NCBI GenBank assembly: GCA_021815645.1
Contig: JAKBAB010000012.1
Coordinates: forward strand, 1 to 35,254
DNA length: 35,254 nt
Direction: 5' to 3'
Source of the DNA: Actinomycetes bacterium
GTDB lineage: Bacteria > Actinomycetota > Acidimicrobiia > Acidimicrobiales > RAAP-2
Positions 1-7,507 of this stretch are shown here, piece after piece (within the stretch, counting starts at the first letter, position 1; each line of letters opens with the position of its first letter). Below the pieces are notes generated by a model, which ran no database searches, was not told where the DNA came from, and was given only the letters and a program-made list of their open reading frames with translations. Position numbers and translations under genes: made by a program.

Positions 1-518
1 GCGTACACGCCGAGTGCGTGTTCCGCACTCTTACGGGCGCAAAAGAGCATCCGTTCGAGTGTTACTAGGTCTACCGGTTTAGTCGGGATTACCAGTTGCT
101 GGATGAAAGTAGGTTCCGACGCACGCGACGAAGGACCGAGCAGCGAACTGTCGACGGGCACCTCACGCCAAGCGTGAGTGCGAAGTCCCATCTTTGCGAA
201 ATGTGCCTCGAGAGCGGACGATCGGTTGCCGGCGCAAGAATCTGGAGGAACCATCCACTGCGCGAGGCCGTAACCACCAAGACCGGGCACTTCCGGTCCA
301 AATTGAGTGCGCACGAACGAGTCGGGCATTTGAATCAAGATGCCCGCTCCGTCTCCGGAGTCGACGTCCGAGCCCGTAGCGCCACGGTGTTCGAGGTGCT
401 CGAGAATCGTGAGCGCGTCGTCGACGGTACCGTGGGTTGGCGTGCCTCGAAGGTCGGCCACCATCCCAACTCCGCACGCATCGTGCTCAAACGCGGGGTC
501 GTAGAGTTCTTTGGTCAT
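1..518 (-). CDS. gltB: Glutamate synthase large subunit (N-terminal part, cut by the window edge)
   Basis: This is the first ~172 codons of the large (alpha) subunit of NADPH-dependent glutamate synthase, which transfers the amide nitrogen of glutamine to 2-oxoglutarate. It belongs to the class II glutamine amidotransferases. After ATG at 518 the protein reads MTKELYDPAFEHDACGVG; Cys15 in the DACGVG motif is the expected catalytic nucleophile, exposed after removal of a short propeptide. The segment ALTILEHLEHRGATGSD and the following GDGAGI are diagnostic for GltB. The frame stays open to base 1, so the FMN and Fe-S parts lie outside. It is divergent from thiO, with a probable TATAGT -10 box at 554-559. 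No strong Shine-Dalgarno is visible, and plus-strand ORFs over this stretch are shadows. Confidence 0.95.
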   Translation of the reverse strand, partial: MTKELYDPAFEHDACGVGMVADLRGTPTHGTVDDALTILEHLEHRGATGSDVDSGDGAGILIQMPDSFVRTQFGPEVPGLGGYGLAQWMVPPDSCAGNRSSALEAHFAKMGLRTHAWREVPVDSSLLGPSSRASEPTFIQQLVIPTKPVDLVTLERMLFCARKSAEHALGVY

Positions 519-553
519 GGCGTCGCTCGTCGGGGCAACGCTGACCCACTCTC

Positions 554-559
554 ACTATA
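554..559 (-). promoter_or_regulatory. Probable -10 box of gltB
   Basis: TATAGT on the minus strand matches TATAAT at five of six positions. It would start transcription near 547, giving a leader of about 30 bases before the gltB ATG. A GATTGA hexamer lies 17 bases upstream as a weak -35. Confidence 0.5.
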
Positions 560-585
560 ACGAAGTAGCACGCCTCTCAATCTTC

Positions 586-591
586 TACGCT
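586..591 (+). promoter_or_regulatory. Probable -10 box of thiO (leaderless)
   Basis: TACGCT is followed by six bases and then GTG at 598. Transcription would begin at or very near the start codon. The same spacing recurs at trpC, the DUF512 gene, the HD gene and trpS. Confidence 0.5.
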
Positions 592-597
592 GGCCAC

Positions 598-1668
598 GTG
601 GGTACCGGTCACGGCAATGCTCTCGTCGTCGGGTCTGGCGTTGTCGGCGCGACGTGCGCTTTTCGTCTCGCGCGCCACGGCTGGCGTGTGACGGTTTTCG
701 ACCCACTCCCCGGGCGGGGTGCGACTTGGGCGGCCGCCGGGATGCTCGCACCGGGCGCCGAGATTGCTCCCGGCGAAAAGGAGAATTATCACAGCCAGTG
801 CGGCGCACTCGAGTCGTGGCGAGCCCTTTCTAGTGAATTGTCGCAGTTGACTCATGAGCAACTGGGCCTCTACGACACCGGAACATTGCTGGTGGGACTC
901 GACGCGAGTGATCGCGCCCTGGTCACCCAGTTCCAGTCGGTGGCCCAGGAGTACGGGAGCGACGTACGACTCGAAACCCGCGAATCGAATCCGGACTATT
1001 TCGTTGGCGTCTCCCCCCGAGTTCGCGAGGGGCTCTTCGTCGCGGGCGACGGCTGGCTCGACCCAGATCAGGCCATGTCGATACTCGCCGTCGCCAACGA
1101 CGCCCTCGGCGTGCAATACGTCACCCGGGAGGTCTTAGAAATCTCTCGTACGGGCAATTCGGTGGGCGCATCCACCGGTGACGAGACCTTTCGGGGCGAC
1201 GTGGGGATTTTGGCGACGGGTGCGCGACCCTTACCGGCCGGAGTTAGGGGTGACTCTCCGCGCTCAGTAAGACCCGTTAGGGGCACGACTCTTCGCGTTC
1301 ATGGACTCGACCGCTCACCCGCGCCCACCCTTCGCGCATTCGTCCACGGACGTGCGTTCTATATGGTCAGTCGCCCCGGTGGGTACTGCGTTCTGGGCGC
1401 CTCCTCGGATGAACGGAGCGACGCGACCGTGGAGGTGGGCGAGTTGTCTCGAATGCTCCGTGACGCCTTGGAACTGGTGCCCGACCTCGACTCGGCGGCC
1501 TTCGTCGAAGTGCGTCAGGGACTGCGACCGGCTACCCACGACCATCGCCCGTTCTTCGACGTGCTCGAAGAACGGTGGGCGTGGTTGAGCGGACACTATC
1601 GACACGGCGTTACTCTCGCACCGCTCGCGTCGCTCGAAGCCCTCGAATTCGCTAATCGGTTCTCGTGA
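598..1668 (+). CDS. thiO: Glycine oxidase, thiamine thiazole biosynthesis (ThiO family)
   Basis: FAD-dependent oxidase of the DAO superfamily. It oxidises glycine to the imine (dehydroglycine) used to build the thiazole ring of thiamine. The N-terminus carries the dinucleotide-binding motif VVGSGVVGA (about residues 10-18) followed by VTVFD, and then a GATWAAAGMLAP segment typical of ThiO. The C-terminus has the family pattern GLRPATHDHRPF...LSGHYRHGVTLAP. Length is 356 residues, normal for the family. GTG at 598 is preferred because it lies just before the FAD fold and six bases after a TACGCT -10 box; the frame is open further upstream to a TTG at 511, but that would overlap gltB. The stop codon overlaps the start of thiS, which strongly supports the thiamine assignment over another DAO oxidase. 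No TPP riboswitch is visible upstream. Confidence 0.88.
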   Translation: MGTGHGNALVVGSGVVGATCAFRLARHGWRVTVFDPLPGRGATWAAAGMLAPGAEIAPGEKENYHSQCGALESWRALSSELSQLTHEQLGLYDTGTLLVGLDASDRALVTQFQSVAQEYGSDVRLETRESNPDYFVGVSPRVREGLFVAGDGWLDPDQAMSILAVANDALGVQYVTREVLEISRTGNSVGASTGDETFRGDVGILATGARPLPAGVRGDSPRSVRPVRGTTLRVHGLDRSPAPTLRAFVHGRAFYMVSRPGGYCVLGASSDERSDATVEVGELSRMLRDALELVPDLDSAAFVEVRQGLRPATHDHRPFFDVLEERWAWLSGHYRHGVTLAPLASLEALEFANRFS

Positions 1669-3277: not shown

Positions 3278-3283
3278 TACAAT
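3278..3283 (+). promoter_or_regulatory. Probable -10 box of the FAD oxidoreductase gene
   Basis: TACAAT (five of six consensus bases) predicts transcription from about 3290, so the mRNA would have a leader of about 95 bases before ATG 3385. The -35 region is not recognisable. Confidence 0.5.
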
Positions 3284-3289
3284 GAACCC

Positions 3290-3384
3290 TAGAGGCCGAG
3301 GTGAAAGTCGGCGTTCGCGCGGTGGAATCCCGCGAAAAATGTCGTGCCAGGAGAGGGTGATTCCAACCAACGGTTGGTCACAGT
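3290..3384 (+). promoter_or_regulatory. Structured 5' leader of the FAD oxidoreductase mRNA
   Basis: Three hairpins follow each other. H1 pairs GCCGA (3295-3299) with TCGGC (3308-3312). H2 pairs TTCGCGCGG (from 3314) with CCCGCGAA (to 3336), eight pairs with one bulge. H3 runs 3357-3381: GTGA..CCAACC pairs with GGTTGGTCAC around loop AAC, with a TT bulge. An excellent Shine-Dalgarno (AGGAGAGG, about 3349-3356) lies between H2 and H3, but 28 bases from ATG; folding H3 would bring it within a few bases of the start. I could not match it to glycine, guanidine, SAM, SAH, glutamine, ZTP or other riboswitch consensus sequences I know. Confidence 0.4.
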
Positions 3385-4797
3385 ATGGAGAAGAAGGACC
3401 CCTTCGTCTTACGCCACCTCGCCGAAGTTCAACCGCAGCTGTGGTGGCTCGACTCAGACCCCTTAGAGCCCGATTCGCACCCGGCCCTTATTGGTGACGT
3501 CGGGGCTGACCTCTGCGTCGTGGGAGCCGGATACACCGGTCTTTGGACGGCGCTGCTCGCCAAGGAGCGAGACCCCCACCGGGACGTGATCGTACTCGAA
3601 CAGTACGAAACGGGGGCGGGGGCGTCGGGACGAAACGGGGGGTTCTGCTCGGCGTCGCTCACGCACGGGTTCGCCAATGGTATGCGCCGTTTCCCCCACG
3701 AGATGGAAACCTTGGAGCGACTCGCCCGGGAGAATCTCGACGAGATCGAGGCAACGATTTCCCGCTACCAGATTGAGTGCGATTGGGAACGCACGGGCGA
3801 GTTGCGCGTTGCGGTCGCTCCGTGGCAATTCGACGGAATGGTCGAAGAGGCGCGACTGCGAAACGAGATGGGCGACCACGTCGAAGTACTAAGCCAGGAC
3901 CAGGTGCAGGCAAGAATTCACTCCCCCTCATACGTCGGCGCCCTATTCGACCACGACGGCAACGCGTTGGTGGACCCGGCCCGCCTCGTTTGGGGACTCG
4001 AAAGGGCCTGCCTGTCGCTCGGCGTGAAGATATTTGAGAACTCCAAGGTGGAACGGCTCGAAGACGTACACGACGCCGTGAGAGTTCACACACCCTACGG
4101 TGCCGTAACGGCCGCGAGAGTGGCTCTCGCGACGAACGTCTTTCCCTCCCTCATCCGACCGGCCCGAAAGTACGTCGTACCGGTTTACGACTACACCCTG
4201 GTTACTGAACCTCTTACGGAGGGTCAATTAGCCAGCATTGGCTGGCAGGGCCGCGAGGGAGTGGCCGACTCGGGCAACCAGTTCCACTACTACCGCCTCA
4301 CCAAGGACAATTCAATCCTCTGGGGCGGCTACGACGCCATCTACAACTTCCGGGCCAAGGCTCACCGCGAGTACGAATTCAACGCCGAGACCTACGCCAA
4401 ACTCGCCGGACACTTTCTTAAGACTTTCCCTCAACTCGCCGGGGTGAAGTTCACTCACGCGTGGGGGGGCGCTATCGATACCTGTACTCGGTTTTCGCCC
4501 TTCTGGGGTACTTCGCACGAGGGCAAGATTGCCTACGTAATGGGATTTACCGGGCTCGGCGTGGCCTCCACCCGTTTCGGTGCGGCGACCATGCTCGATC
4601 TACTCGACGGTATCGATAGTGAACGCACTCGCCTAACAATGGTACGAAAAAAACCGATGCCCTTCCCGCCCGAACCACTGCGCTGGCTATTCATCCGGCT
4701 CACCCAGCGAGCTATTCGCCGTGCCGACGAGAATTTCGGCCAGCGGAATCTCTGGCTGCGAGTGCTCGATCTCTTTAACTTAGGCTTCGATTCCTAA
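3385..4797 (+). CDS. FAD-dependent amine/amino-acid oxidoreductase (DadA/OrdL-PuuB-like)
   Basis: A 470-residue flavoprotein of the DAO superfamily. The N-terminal FAD site is LCVVGAGYTGLWTALLA (GxGxxG at residues 47-52) with the ribose-binding acid in VIVLEQ. GAGASGRNGGF (residues 77-87) is the loop seen in gamma-glutamylputrescine oxidases, sarcosine oxidases and related OrdL proteins. The C-terminal half has HAWGGAIDTCTRFSPFWG and a closing FAD-contact region GFTGLGVASTRFGA. It probably oxidises a C-N bond of an amine or amino acid, releasing an aldehyde or keto acid; the substrate cannot be read from sequence. It stands alone, with no aminotransferase, ligase or dehydrogenase partner nearby. 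ATG 3385 is the only sensible start in frame. It converges on acs with six bases between the stops. Confidence 0.82.
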   Translation: MEKKDPFVLRHLAEVQPQLWWLDSDPLEPDSHPALIGDVGADLCVVGAGYTGLWTALLAKERDPHRDVIVLEQYETGAGASGRNGGFCSASLTHGFANGMRRFPHEMETLERLARENLDEIEATISRYQIECDWERTGELRVAVAPWQFDGMVEEARLRNEMGDHVEVLSQDQVQARIHSPSYVGALFDHDGNALVDPARLVWGLERACLSLGVKIFENSKVERLEDVHDAVRVHTPYGAVTAARVALATNVFPSLIRPARKYVVPVYDYTLVTEPLTEGQLASIGWQGREGVADSGNQFHYYRLTKDNSILWGGYDAIYNFRAKAHREYEFNAETYAKLAGHFLKTFPQLAGVKFTHAWGGAIDTCTRFSPFWGTSHEGKIAYVMGFTGLGVASTRFGAATMLDLLDGIDSERTRLTMVRKKPMPFPPEPLRWLFIRLTQRAIRRADENFGQRNLWLRVLDLFNLGFDS

Positions 4798-4803
4798 CTA
4801 GCC

Positions 4804-6774
4804 CTACTCTTCGTCCCCGCTGCTCTCGCTCATCAGCACCGCAATCGAGTTCACTACCGTGGGGTCCATCAGAGTCGTAACGTCCCCCAGGGGGCGATTC
4901 TCGGCGACGTCTCGCAAGAGCCGTCTCATGATCTTGCCCGAACGAGTCTTGGGTAGTTCGGGAGTGAGAATAATTTGGCGAGGTTTAGCTATGGGACTAA
5001 TCGTTCGCGAAACGTGCTCTCGAAGTTCGCTAATAACGCCCGCCTGGTCCTTTTGCGCGTCCTCGGCGGACAGTTTCAGCGTAACGAAGGCCACGATGGC
5101 CTGTCCGGTCGTTTCGTCGGTCGCGCCCACCACGGCCGCTTCGGCCACGGCGCGGTGGCCCACGAGAGCGTGCTCCACTTCGGTCGTGGAGAGTCGGTGT
5201 CCCGAGATGTTCATCACGTCATCAATTCGACCCAAGAGCCACAAGTCCCCGTCGGCGTCTCGCTTCGCCCCGTCTCCCGCGAAGTAGACCCCCGGAAAAC
5301 GTGACCAGTATGTCTCCTTGAACCGCTCCGGGTCGCCGTAGATACCCCGAGTCATCGAGGGCCACGGGTGAGTTATGACGAGGTACCCACCTTCACCGTT
5401 GCCCACCGATTTGCCCTCATTATCGACAACGTCCACTTGTATTCCGGGTAGCGCGCGCATCGCCGCGCCGGGCTTCGTCGAAGTGATTCCGGGCAGTGGC
5501 GAAATCATTATTGCCCCGGTCTCGGTCTGCCACCACGTGTCAACAATCGGACAGCGGCCGGATCCGATGTGTTCGCGGTACCACATCCACGCCTCGGGGT
5601 TTATCGGTTCGCCGACGGTTCCGAGCAACCGCAGAGACGATAGGTCGTGAGCGGCCGGGTGTTGGTGACCCCACTTCATTAGAGTACGAATGGTCGTGGG
5701 CGCGGTGTAGAGGATGGTGACTTTATTTTCCTCAATAATCTTCCACCAGCGGTCACGTCCACCGGAGTCGGGTAGTCCCTCGTACATCACGGACGTCACA
5801 CCGTTGACGAGGGGGCCGTAAACGATGTAACTGTGTCCAGTAATCCACCCAATGTCGGCGGCGGTCCAGCACACGTCGGTCTCAGCCTTAACGTCAAAGA
5901 TGTTGTAGTGGGTCGTAGCGACCTGAGTGAGGTAGCCACCGGTGGTGTGGAAAATACCTTTCGGCTTGGCGGTCGTACCTGAGGTGTACATAATGAGCAA
6001 CGTCTGCTCCGCGGGGAAAGACTCGTAGGTGTGGGTGTCGCTCTGTCGTTCCACGAGGTCGTGCCACCAGTGATCTCGGCCATCTACCCAGGCCACGTCA
6101 CCGCCGGTACGCCGAACTACGAGGACGGCACGAACGTTGGGGCAAGACTCGAGGGCTTCGTCCACCGCGGGCTTAAGCGGCGCCGCGGCGCCGCGTCGAA
6201 AGGCTCCGTCGGCGGTCACGACCACTTGGCAGTCGGAGTCGAGGATTCGACTCGCGAGAGCTTCCGCGGAGAAGCCCGCGAAGATAACTGAATGCACGGC
6301 GCCGAGACGGACAATGGCGAGCATCGTCACGACGGCCTCGGGAATCATGGGCATATAGACCGCGACGCGATCTCCCGCCTTAACACCTATTTCGCTCAGA
6401 GCGTTCGCCGCTTGGGCGACCATCTTTTGCAAATCGGCGTAGGTAATCGTCCTCGACTCGCCCTCGGCGTCGCCGACCCAGTGGTAAGCGACCTTTTCGC
6501 CGCGTCCGGCCTCGACGTGGCGATCTACGCAGTTGTAGGCCGCGTTCAGCGTCCCGTCACCAAACCACTTAGCGAAGGGGCGGTCCCACTCCAGAGTCTT
6601 GGTGGGCGCCTTGGTCCAAGTCAGGCGATCGGCCTGCGTTCGCCAGTACGCGACAGGATCGGCGGCCGCGTCGACGTAGATTGACGGCTGCGCGTTCGCG
6701 CTGGCCGCGAACTGTTGGCTCGGTTCGAAACTTCGTGTCTCGTCCAACCACGCTTCTAGGCGCGCTTCACTCAT
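4804..6774 (-). CDS. acs: Acetyl-CoA synthetase (AMP-forming)
   Basis: A 656-residue ANL-family enzyme that activates acetate with ATP to acetyl-AMP and then forms acetyl-CoA. The ATP P-loop is MYTSGTTAKPKG; WWQTETG and the YGDPERF region follow; the hinge and C-terminal lid are GRIDDVMNISGHRLSTTEVE; PKTRSGKIMRR carries the C-terminal Lys that in this family catalyses adenylation and is regulated by acetylation. The long N-terminal region (PVAYWRTQADRLTW..KWFGDGTLNAAYNCVDRHV) identifies acetyl-CoA rather than other acyl-CoA synthetases. ATG 6774 has GGGGGAG five bases upstream; the longer open frame to 6804 lacks such a site. It lies downstream of the acetate transporter on the same strand, 169 bases apart, with a strong hairpin between them. 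Confidence 0.97.
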   Translation of the reverse strand: MSEARLEAWLDETRSFEPSQQFAASANAQPSIYVDAAADPVAYWRTQADRLTWTKAPTKTLEWDRPFAKWFGDGTLNAAYNCVDRHVEAGRGEKVAYHWVGDAEGESRTITYADLQKMVAQAANALSEIGVKAGDRVAVYMPMIPEAVVTMLAIVRLGAVHSVIFAGFSAEALASRILDSDCQVVVTADGAFRRGAAAPLKPAVDEALESCPNVRAVLVVRRTGGDVAWVDGRDHWWHDLVERQSDTHTYESFPAEQTLLIMYTSGTTAKPKGIFHTTGGYLTQVATTHYNIFDVKAETDVCWTAADIGWITGHSYIVYGPLVNGVTSVMYEGLPDSGGRDRWWKIIEENKVTILYTAPTTIRTLMKWGHQHPAAHDLSSLRLLGTVGEPINPEAWMWYREHIGSGRCPIVDTWWQTETGAIMISPLPGITSTKPGAAMRALPGIQVDVVDNEGKSVGNGEGGYLVITHPWPSMTRGIYGDPERFKETYWSRFPGVYFAGDGAKRDADGDLWLLGRIDDVMNISGHRLSTTEVEHALVGHRAVAEAAVVGATDETTGQAIVAFVTLKLSAEDAQKDQAGVISELREHVSRTISPIAKPRQIILTPELPKTRSGKIMRRLLRDVAENRPLGDVTTLMDPTVVNSIAVLMSESSGDEE

Positions 6775-6866
6775 AACACTCCCCCACTTTCTGTAACTCA
6801 CCACGACGCCGTCTAAGTGCGTCTACGCGGACTCTCTGTGAGAGTAGTGCTGATTCACCCGTAGAT

Positions 6867-6943: not shown

Positions 6944-7507
6944 TTAGCCGCGCGGACCGACGGGCAGTACCACTTTTCCGTGGGTGGCGTTGACCACCCC
7001 GGCTGCGGACGCGTACCAGGCGGCAATGGCGGTCGCAATACCCGTCCAACCGCCAATGTGCACGATCGATGCGTGTCCCGTACCCCAGTTGCCAATTGTC
7101 AGGAAAATAAAGGTAATTGACAGGAGGACAAAGACGACGAGAATGGCGTTAGACGTCTTCAACGCCGCCAGAGTCATGTACAGGGTGAAAATGGTCCACC
7201 CCAGCAAGAAGATTCCGACGGTGTCGGTCCCTCCCCCGGGAATATTGAACTTCTCTAACGCATAAAACGCCAGCCAGAACGCTCCGTACGACGAGAAGGC
7301 GACGGCGGCGAAGGTGTTCTTGCGAACAAACTCCCACATTCCCGCCAGCAACTGAATGCTTCCCCCGTAGAAGAACGCGAGGGCGAGTGCCGCAGCGACG
7401 CCCGCTCCCTTCCAGAGGTTGGCGTTCGCGCTACTGAGGCAGAACGTCGTCATAGCGAACCCGGCTAGTCCCAAAGGACCGGGATCCGCAACTCTTTCTT
7501 CGGCCAT
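6944..7507 (-). CDS. satP: Acetate uptake transporter, SatP/YaaH (GPR1/FUN34) family
   Basis: A 187-residue membrane protein of the AceTr family, which takes up acetate (and often succinate) with protons or as a channel. About six hydrophobic segments can be seen: LGLAGFAMTTFCL, VAAALALAFFYGG, FAAVAFSSYGAFWLAFYAL, VGIFLLGWTIFTLYMTLAAL, NAILVVFVLLSITFIFLTIG and GIATAIAAWYASAAGVV. The N-terminal ADPGPLGL matches the family signature (usually NPAPLGL), with Asn replaced by Asp. SYGAFWLAF and NWGTGHASIVHIGGWTGI are also typical. ATG 7507 has GGGGGGAA upstream. It precedes acs on the same strand, so the pair imports and activates acetate. Confidence 0.92.
   Translation of the reverse strand: MAEERVADPGPLGLAGFAMTTFCLSSANANLWKGAGVAAALALAFFYGGSIQLLAGMWEFVRKNTFAAVAFSSYGAFWLAFYALEKFNIPGGGTDTVGIFLLGWTIFTLYMTLAALKTSNAILVVFVLLSITFIFLTIGNWGTGHASIVHIGGWTGIATAIAAWYASAAGVVNATHGKVVLPVGPRG

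Follow-up and report, generated by a model that had tools for sequence, protein, structure and literature searches.

The oxidase gene and its leader

The window, by which we mean the whole stretch of 35,254 nucleotides analysed (contig C20), belongs to an actinobacterial source assembly of 1.9 Mb with a completeness of 86.5%. It carries a gene for a DAO-family FAD oxidoreductase of 470 residues, preceded by a structured leader (Table 1). The top NCBIfam models score far under their cut-offs, with 250.8 of 632.8 for aminophosphonate oxidoreductase and 129.6 of 600 for L-pipecolate oxidase. Downstream of the oxidase, the opposite strand carries the next long frame, and the gene is therefore probably monocistronic in the window. 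Its named relatives (the best 80 of 380 confirmed relatives, at 70-88% protein identity, whose upstream regions were read) come nearly all from metagenome-assembled genomes, many of them Acidimicrobiaceae or Actinomycetes whose isolate names include palsa, bog and fen.

Table 1. Positions of the leader elements and of the oxidase gene in the window.
Feature	Position	Strand	Basis and remarks
-10-like box TACAAT	3278..3283	+	Sequence; aligned orthologues carry the same box or TAGAAT, TAGACT, TAGGCT
Hairpin 1, GCCGA-GGTGAAAG-TCGGC	3295..3312	+	Fold of 3278-3400; closer clade only
Hairpin 2, TTCGCG...CGCGAA	3314..3336	+	Fold of 3278-3400; closer clade only
Extended Shine-Dalgarno AGGAGAGGGTGAT	3349..3361	+	Sequence and aligned orthologues
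In-frame TGA	3358..3360	+	Sequence; rules out any earlier start codon
Hairpin 3 (spacer hairpin) CCAACC-AAC-GGTTGG	3363..3377	+	Fold and comparison; between Shine-Dalgarno and ATG
Linker TCACAGT	3378..3384	+	Sequence; TCAC able to pair with the Shine-Dalgarno GTGA in the window
DAO-family FAD oxidoreductase, 470 aa	3385..4797	+	PF01266, 203.6 bits

Several neighbours were recorded. A second DAO-family oxidoreductase is encoded upstream in the window (511-1668, + strand). An AMP-binding, acetyl-CoA synthetase-like gene (4804-6804, - strand) adjoins a GPR1/FUN34/YaaH family gene (6944-7507, - strand), and the two look like an acetate-use pair; a cluster whose representative resembles, by eye, the AMP-binding gene of the window is present at 60 of the 80 named loci. 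At 29 of these loci a co-directional Oxidored_FMN (NADH:flavin oxidoreductase) gene lies 5′ of the DAO gene (cluster 2; for example L173:1829-2893), and a search of the window for a homologue at E 1e-20 returned none.

The elements named in the original prediction are all present: the TACAAT box, from whose position we place the transcript start near 3290, three hairpins in the fold of 3278-3400, and a motif, AGGAGAGG, that ends at 3356, exactly 28 nt upstream of the ATG at 3385. The sole plausible Shine-Dalgarno (SD) of the leader is the longer AGGAGAGGGTGA, which ends at 3360 and leaves 24 nt to the ATG. The 3′ end of bacterial 16S rRNA, AUCACC, is complementary to the GGTGAT of this SD, AUCACCUCC being the 16S 3′ end presumed for this genome, and GGTGA (3356-3360) shows no variation across 30 aligned orthologues. 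Hairpin 3 was said to fill almost all of the distance between SD and ATG, which overstates its share, 15 of 28 nt. The GTGA of the SD (3357-3360) can pair with TCAC at 3378-3381 in the window, extending hairpin 3 over part of the SD; this GTG/CAC pairing with the bases after the hairpin is predicted in the closer clade and, by eye, is not kept in divergent leaders.

ATG 3385 is the only ATG, GTG or TTG start downstream of the in-frame TGA. At 16 of 30 loci the stop-to-stop frame is 478 residues long against a protein of 470. An upstream start codon is ruled out by the same TGA, and a leader peptide was rejected as well, with the GTG at 3357 out of frame with ATG 3385 and the frame relation differing among orthologues. 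A blastn search of the own genome found no second copy of the leader; the string GAGAGGGTGA is not special on its own, occurring at 7 places in that genome against 5 for a reversed control.

The leader has no gathering-level match in Rfam, which agrees with the earlier failure to recognise a known riboswitch family; at E values up to 10, only Ms_AS-8 and sR47 were returned, far below gathering and at chance level. As a single sequence, the window leader (3278-3400) folds no better than chance (z -0.37, with 69 of 200 shuffles equally stable), and the finding therefore rests wholly on comparison.

Comparison of orthologous leaders

All 80 named relatives carry a GGTG far from the start, with 20-25 nt between the two, counted from the fifth base position of GGTG. 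An uninterrupted spacer hairpin of at least 5 bp is found in 78 of the 80 and one of at least 6 bp in 71, whereas the same hairpin search in shuffled spacers gave 26% and 8%, respectively. The looped-out SD geometry put forward originally is thus general among these relatives; the exceptions, L176 and L178, have a stem of 3 bp only and, by eye, a second GGTG nearer the start. The arrangement is also seen at 30 of 30 same-genus loci found by protein (L002-L031) and at 61 further loci (91 of 91 in total), those 61 having been fetched because R1, a covariance model of the SD-hairpin module, matched them.

The spacer stem occurs in 27 arm combinations (such as CCAACC/GGTTGG, CCAGCC/GGCTGG, CCGGCG/CGCCGG, GTCTGGCC/GGCCAGAC and CCAGTC/GACTGG), and on the DAO tree of the 80 named relatives at least 41 pair changes are counted over seven positions. 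Both counts lean towards pairing because the hairpin was picked in each sequence for best pairing, a bias that the shuffles share. The loop sequence also varies among orthologues, and there is no constant loop.

Covariation in orthologous upstream regions, the absence of which had been named as grounds for dropping the original prediction, was looked for and found. With a fixed three-hairpin structure, 94.3% of the cells pair in an alignment of 23 sequences and 10 of 16 pairs have changed in both arms, a result exceeding every one of 500 shuffles. In a 44-sequence alignment, whose leaders were chosen for having all three hairpins and which was fitted to the model, the values are 94.9% and 14 of 16, with 0 of 500 shuffles as high. 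Both-side changes affect 6 of 6 modelled pairs in hairpin 1 and 3 of 4 in hairpin 2. For hairpin 3, a 30-sequence alignment, with misalignment in some of its divergent rows, gives paired cells and a covariation score above all 500 shuffles; weaker are the number of pairs changed on both sides (3 of 6; 42 of 500 shuffles as high) and the further pair types, no more numerous than in shuffles (441 of 500). Hairpins 1 and 2 are missing, by eye, in several divergent orthologues that retain hairpin 3 (L179, L183 and the L143/L148/L158 group). We regard them as a genuine addition, specific to one clade, with a possible role in tuning how accessible the SD is.

That hairpin 3 acts as a spacer is argued most strongly by the folded spacing, which matches that of relatives lacking the hairpin. 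When hairpin 3 is left out, GGTGA lies 4-11 nt from the start in the 80 named relatives, with a mode of 7. The comparison set consisted of 50 class matches at 44-56% identity, of which the 17 with loci (51-56%) were checked: GGTG stands 3-9 nt before a start in 15 of the 17 (L206 and L216 have none near), and the distant-SD hairpin is absent from all 17 save for a chance stem in L222. One of these hairpin-less orthologues, L207, reads GAGAGGGTGATTCCC-ATG. At 43-52% identity, L190-L193 have neither a near GGTG nor a distant-SD hairpin, and L205, from another genus of the same family (68%), reads AAGGGGGCTGATCCCGGCACCGGCCGGATCTCATG, in which, by eye, a hairpin follows an SD-like run.

Comparison shows, at the level of sequence, that the SD lies beyond the normal distance, that a covarying hairpin stands between it and the start, and that the folded spacing falls within a functional range and matches that of hairpin-less orthologues. 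We therefore consider it probable that the leader is a split ribosome-binding site in which hairpin 3 is a structural spacer needed for initiation. The 30S subunit would pair with the extended SD, the folded hairpin would remove 15 nt from the path, shortening the gap in the window from 24 to about 9 nt, and the ribosome would initiate while the hairpin stays folded. The hairpin may have been inserted into an ancestral ribosome-binding site of normal spacing. A structural spacer is the simplest reading of the leaders compared, and it may or may not be regulated.

Leader hairpins commonly serve as sites for repressor or activator proteins or as mRNA-stability elements, a role that would make the distant SD incidental and would fit the finding that strong model matches occur solely before the DAO gene. 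For hairpin 3 we hold this to be very unlikely, given that its stem and loop sequences both vary while the effective spacing stays within 4-11 nt; the variability points to geometry rather than sequence recognition.

As to specificity, 99 genomes of the genus, the own one among them, were searched with R1, and 71 of these contain a single match at E<1e-4, in every case beside the DAO gene; at L094 this placement comes from tblastn only. R3, a model of the whole leader, had one match each in 66 of the 99. The search filters lose weak matches, and R1 overlooked some true cases, such as G011/L029, a row used in its training. From the weaker R1 matches listed, ten were examined. Two of them (L097 and L099, in G120 and G112) are DAO leaders; a DAO gene is lacking at the other eight (L098 and L100-L106), which were put down to chance. 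Among these, the ATG of L106 is preceded, at 3 nt, by a normal SD, and L105 (G027:C32:34524-34563) shows a short GC hairpin directly before the ATG of a 486-residue frame, which resembles PEP carboxykinase by eye and has an SD-like stretch, GTTGA; it too was taken as chance. The second R1 match of the own genome lies on C23 (E 0.36). With ten of the weak matches examined, specificity of the module for the DAO gene is supported but not proved by these searches.

Predicted folding and the question of a switch

In the original prediction, unfolding of hairpin 3 would turn translation off. Of 64 window-type leaders modelled with ViennaRNA, 50 form hairpin 3 with a probability exceeding 0.8 (the window has 0.93, L167 has 0.0). 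The models therefore do not point to a simple unfolding switch, and they make the folded spacer the most likely state. The hairpin energies in the 64 leaders range from -13.4 to -5.0 kcal/mol (mean -8.4), with the window at the weak end (-5.0). A heat-labile switch was also rejected, because ViennaRNA still gives the hairpin of the window -3.9 kcal/mol at 50 °C, which makes simple melting unlikely. The SD itself is predicted to be mostly paired, with an unpaired probability of 0.17 in the window, a mean of 0.33, and values above 0.5 in just 4 of the 64 leaders; the folded leader is therefore not simply an open ribosome-binding site, and partial occlusion of the SD by the folded leader is possible according to the models.

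These results bear on a metabolite riboswitch, in which hairpins 1-3 would form or adjoin an amine aptamer and the folding and unfolding of hairpin 3 would switch translation of the oxidase. The covariation of all three hairpins and the single leader match per genome are what such an element would produce, and the amine gene context in the relatives described below would suit it. The ligand aptamer that it calls for does not emerge from the comparison, however. Hairpin 3 has no conserved unpaired core, no conserved aptamer core was found in the window lineage, and several divergent orthologues keep hairpin 3 where hairpins 1 and 2 are, by eye, missing. Together with the missing Rfam match and the predicted folding of hairpin 3, this makes a riboswitch unlikely, and we retain the split ribosome-binding site with a folded spacer as the preferred reading.

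Freshwater relatives and a possible polyamine connection

Thirteen of the loci (L168-L172, L175, L177, L180-L182, L184, L186 and L188) belong to a clade with small, partly lake-derived genomes, which by inference is probably Nanopelagicales. Here the DAO gene sits in a potA-potB-potC-DAO-agmatinase operon at 10 of the 13 loci, L182 having an extra gene between DAO and agmatinase; at L168 and L172 the part of the operon covered by the fetched stretch is present, and L188 has none of it. A GABA transaminase gene is nearby at five of the loci. NCBIfam cut-offs are passed by PotA and agmatinase (both in L181) and by GABA transaminase (L184), with PotB and PotC below theirs. The oxidase gene, called an orphan at the outset, is thus one within the window but not in these relatives, and the amine link that had been suspected is supported by their polyamine-uptake and agmatinase genes. 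Elsewhere, putative pot genes at L156 were rejected, NCBIfam pointing instead to a Drr-type ABC transporter. A tblastn search of L241-L246, around orthologues of 52-68% identity, found no polyamine operon; it gave an agmatinase-like match at L245 (47% identity, the frame over it without an NCBIfam match at E 1e-30) and a weak PotA-like match at L246 (37%).

The freshwater leader, about 120 nt long (for example L168:2882-3003), differs from that of the window and ends in the same SD-hairpin-ATG module. Compensatory changes are frequent in its P1 and P2 stems, affecting 12 of 14 pairs across 27 sequences, which renders a DNA operator at these palindromes unlikely. A core, CTCCGGAGGACCCGGG, is kept in 26 of the 27, with one first-base change by eye, and is followed by an SD around GGGGTG, hairpin 3 and the ATG. 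Hairpin 3 hardly covaries among the 27 leaders (1 of 6 pairs), CCGG being nearly fixed. R2, a model of this leader, matches in 26 of 60 relatives of G395; in 26 of 27 loci re-examined the leader lies directly before a DAO gene, and for L262, a short stretch, no DAO gene could be located. Carriers beyond the 13 loci are L223 and L248-L273. Against the window and 36 window-type named loci, R2 found only a 24-nt piece in L119 (E 0.51). It found nothing in 396 genomes of the phylum, a result that shows little because the sample held no genome known to carry the freshwater leader. An Rfam scan of 8 freshwater and 2 other loci at the gathering threshold returned only tRNAs. On these sequence comparisons, the freshwater leader is a candidate regulatory RNA of the polyamine operon.

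In RNAalifold models of 13 freshwater sequences, the core pairs with the SD and the 5′ arm of hairpin 3, to the exclusion of hairpin 3. This nearly invariant core speaks for the riboswitch reading in so far as it could sequester the SD. Of the ten alternative pairs, nine do not vary among the 13 sequences and one differs in a single sequence; because these bases hardly vary, the alternative pairing is a hypothesis beyond the reach of covariation support.

A further explanation needs no aptamer: polyamines might non-specifically stabilise the GC-rich spacer hairpin and so raise, in a feed-forward manner, translation of the oxidase, which would itself degrade polyamines. One class of the E. coli polyamine modulon has an SD that is poorly recognisable or lies far from the AUG, and polyamines change the local structure there (PMC4405209); the SD of the window is likewise unusually far from its AUG. 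The operon context of the freshwater DAO gene and an agmatinase gene above cut-off on another contig of the window's genome would also agree with such a role. However, the published effects are 2.9- and 3.5-fold and concern a spacing of 10 nt (SoxR and EmrR), against 24-28 in the window, and no conserved hairpin is described in the part of that account used here (PMC4405209). The oxidase's best NCBIfam match, aminophosphonate oxidoreductase, is far under cut-off, the window yielded none of the polyamine genes sought, and the PotB/PotC-like permeases on other contigs of its genome score below cut-off, with the PotC family scoring in 14 of 14 control genomes. Polyamine control of the oxidase is possible by analogy; stabilisation of this modulon type we consider quite unlikely. 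Similarly improbable, in our judgement, is a combined scheme in which the split site would be an aptamer-less polyamine sensor and, in the freshwater clade, the module joined to an SD-sequestering core would form a two-state switch, an RNA class with no Rfam match.

Known systems offer partial parallels to the split ribosome-binding site. In the E. coli thrS leader, a hairpin lies between a distal single-stranded domain and the SD region. Its split site indicates that the ribosome accommodates a folded hairpin inside the initiation region (PMC3936740); the window hairpin differs in separating the SD from the AUG. Closer are genes 25 and 38 of phage T4, where a mutation-tested hairpin cuts the SD-AUG distance from 27 to 11 nt and from 22 to 5 nt, respectively (PMC3014915). 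In the window, too, the SD is too far from the AUG and an intervening hairpin would restore a functional distance. Unlike the gene 25 site, which according to the same source is kept only in close T-even phages, the present element is chromosomal, has a long extended SD, occurs in two actinobacterial lineages and has covarying hairpins upstream. On sequence grounds, the finding is best placed with the T4-type split sites, of which it would be a conserved variant on a chromosome. The spermidine riboswitch, another polyamine-linked leader RNA, is a SAM-I variant that stops transcription of biosynthesis genes (PMC10853860); the present leader matches neither SAM-I nor another riboswitch, and that riboswitch acts on transcription. 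No title among the entries listed on structured RNAs in these groups concerns this element, by which we do not claim its absence from print.

Gene prediction and models of translation both use the distance from SD to AUG as a standard rule. A conserved chromosomal hairpin that supplies this distance would provide natural test material, in dozens of covarying versions, for the tolerance of the 30S subunit towards structure in the spacer. If its folding is regulated, the module would be a very compact device for translational control, possibly serving amine catabolism.
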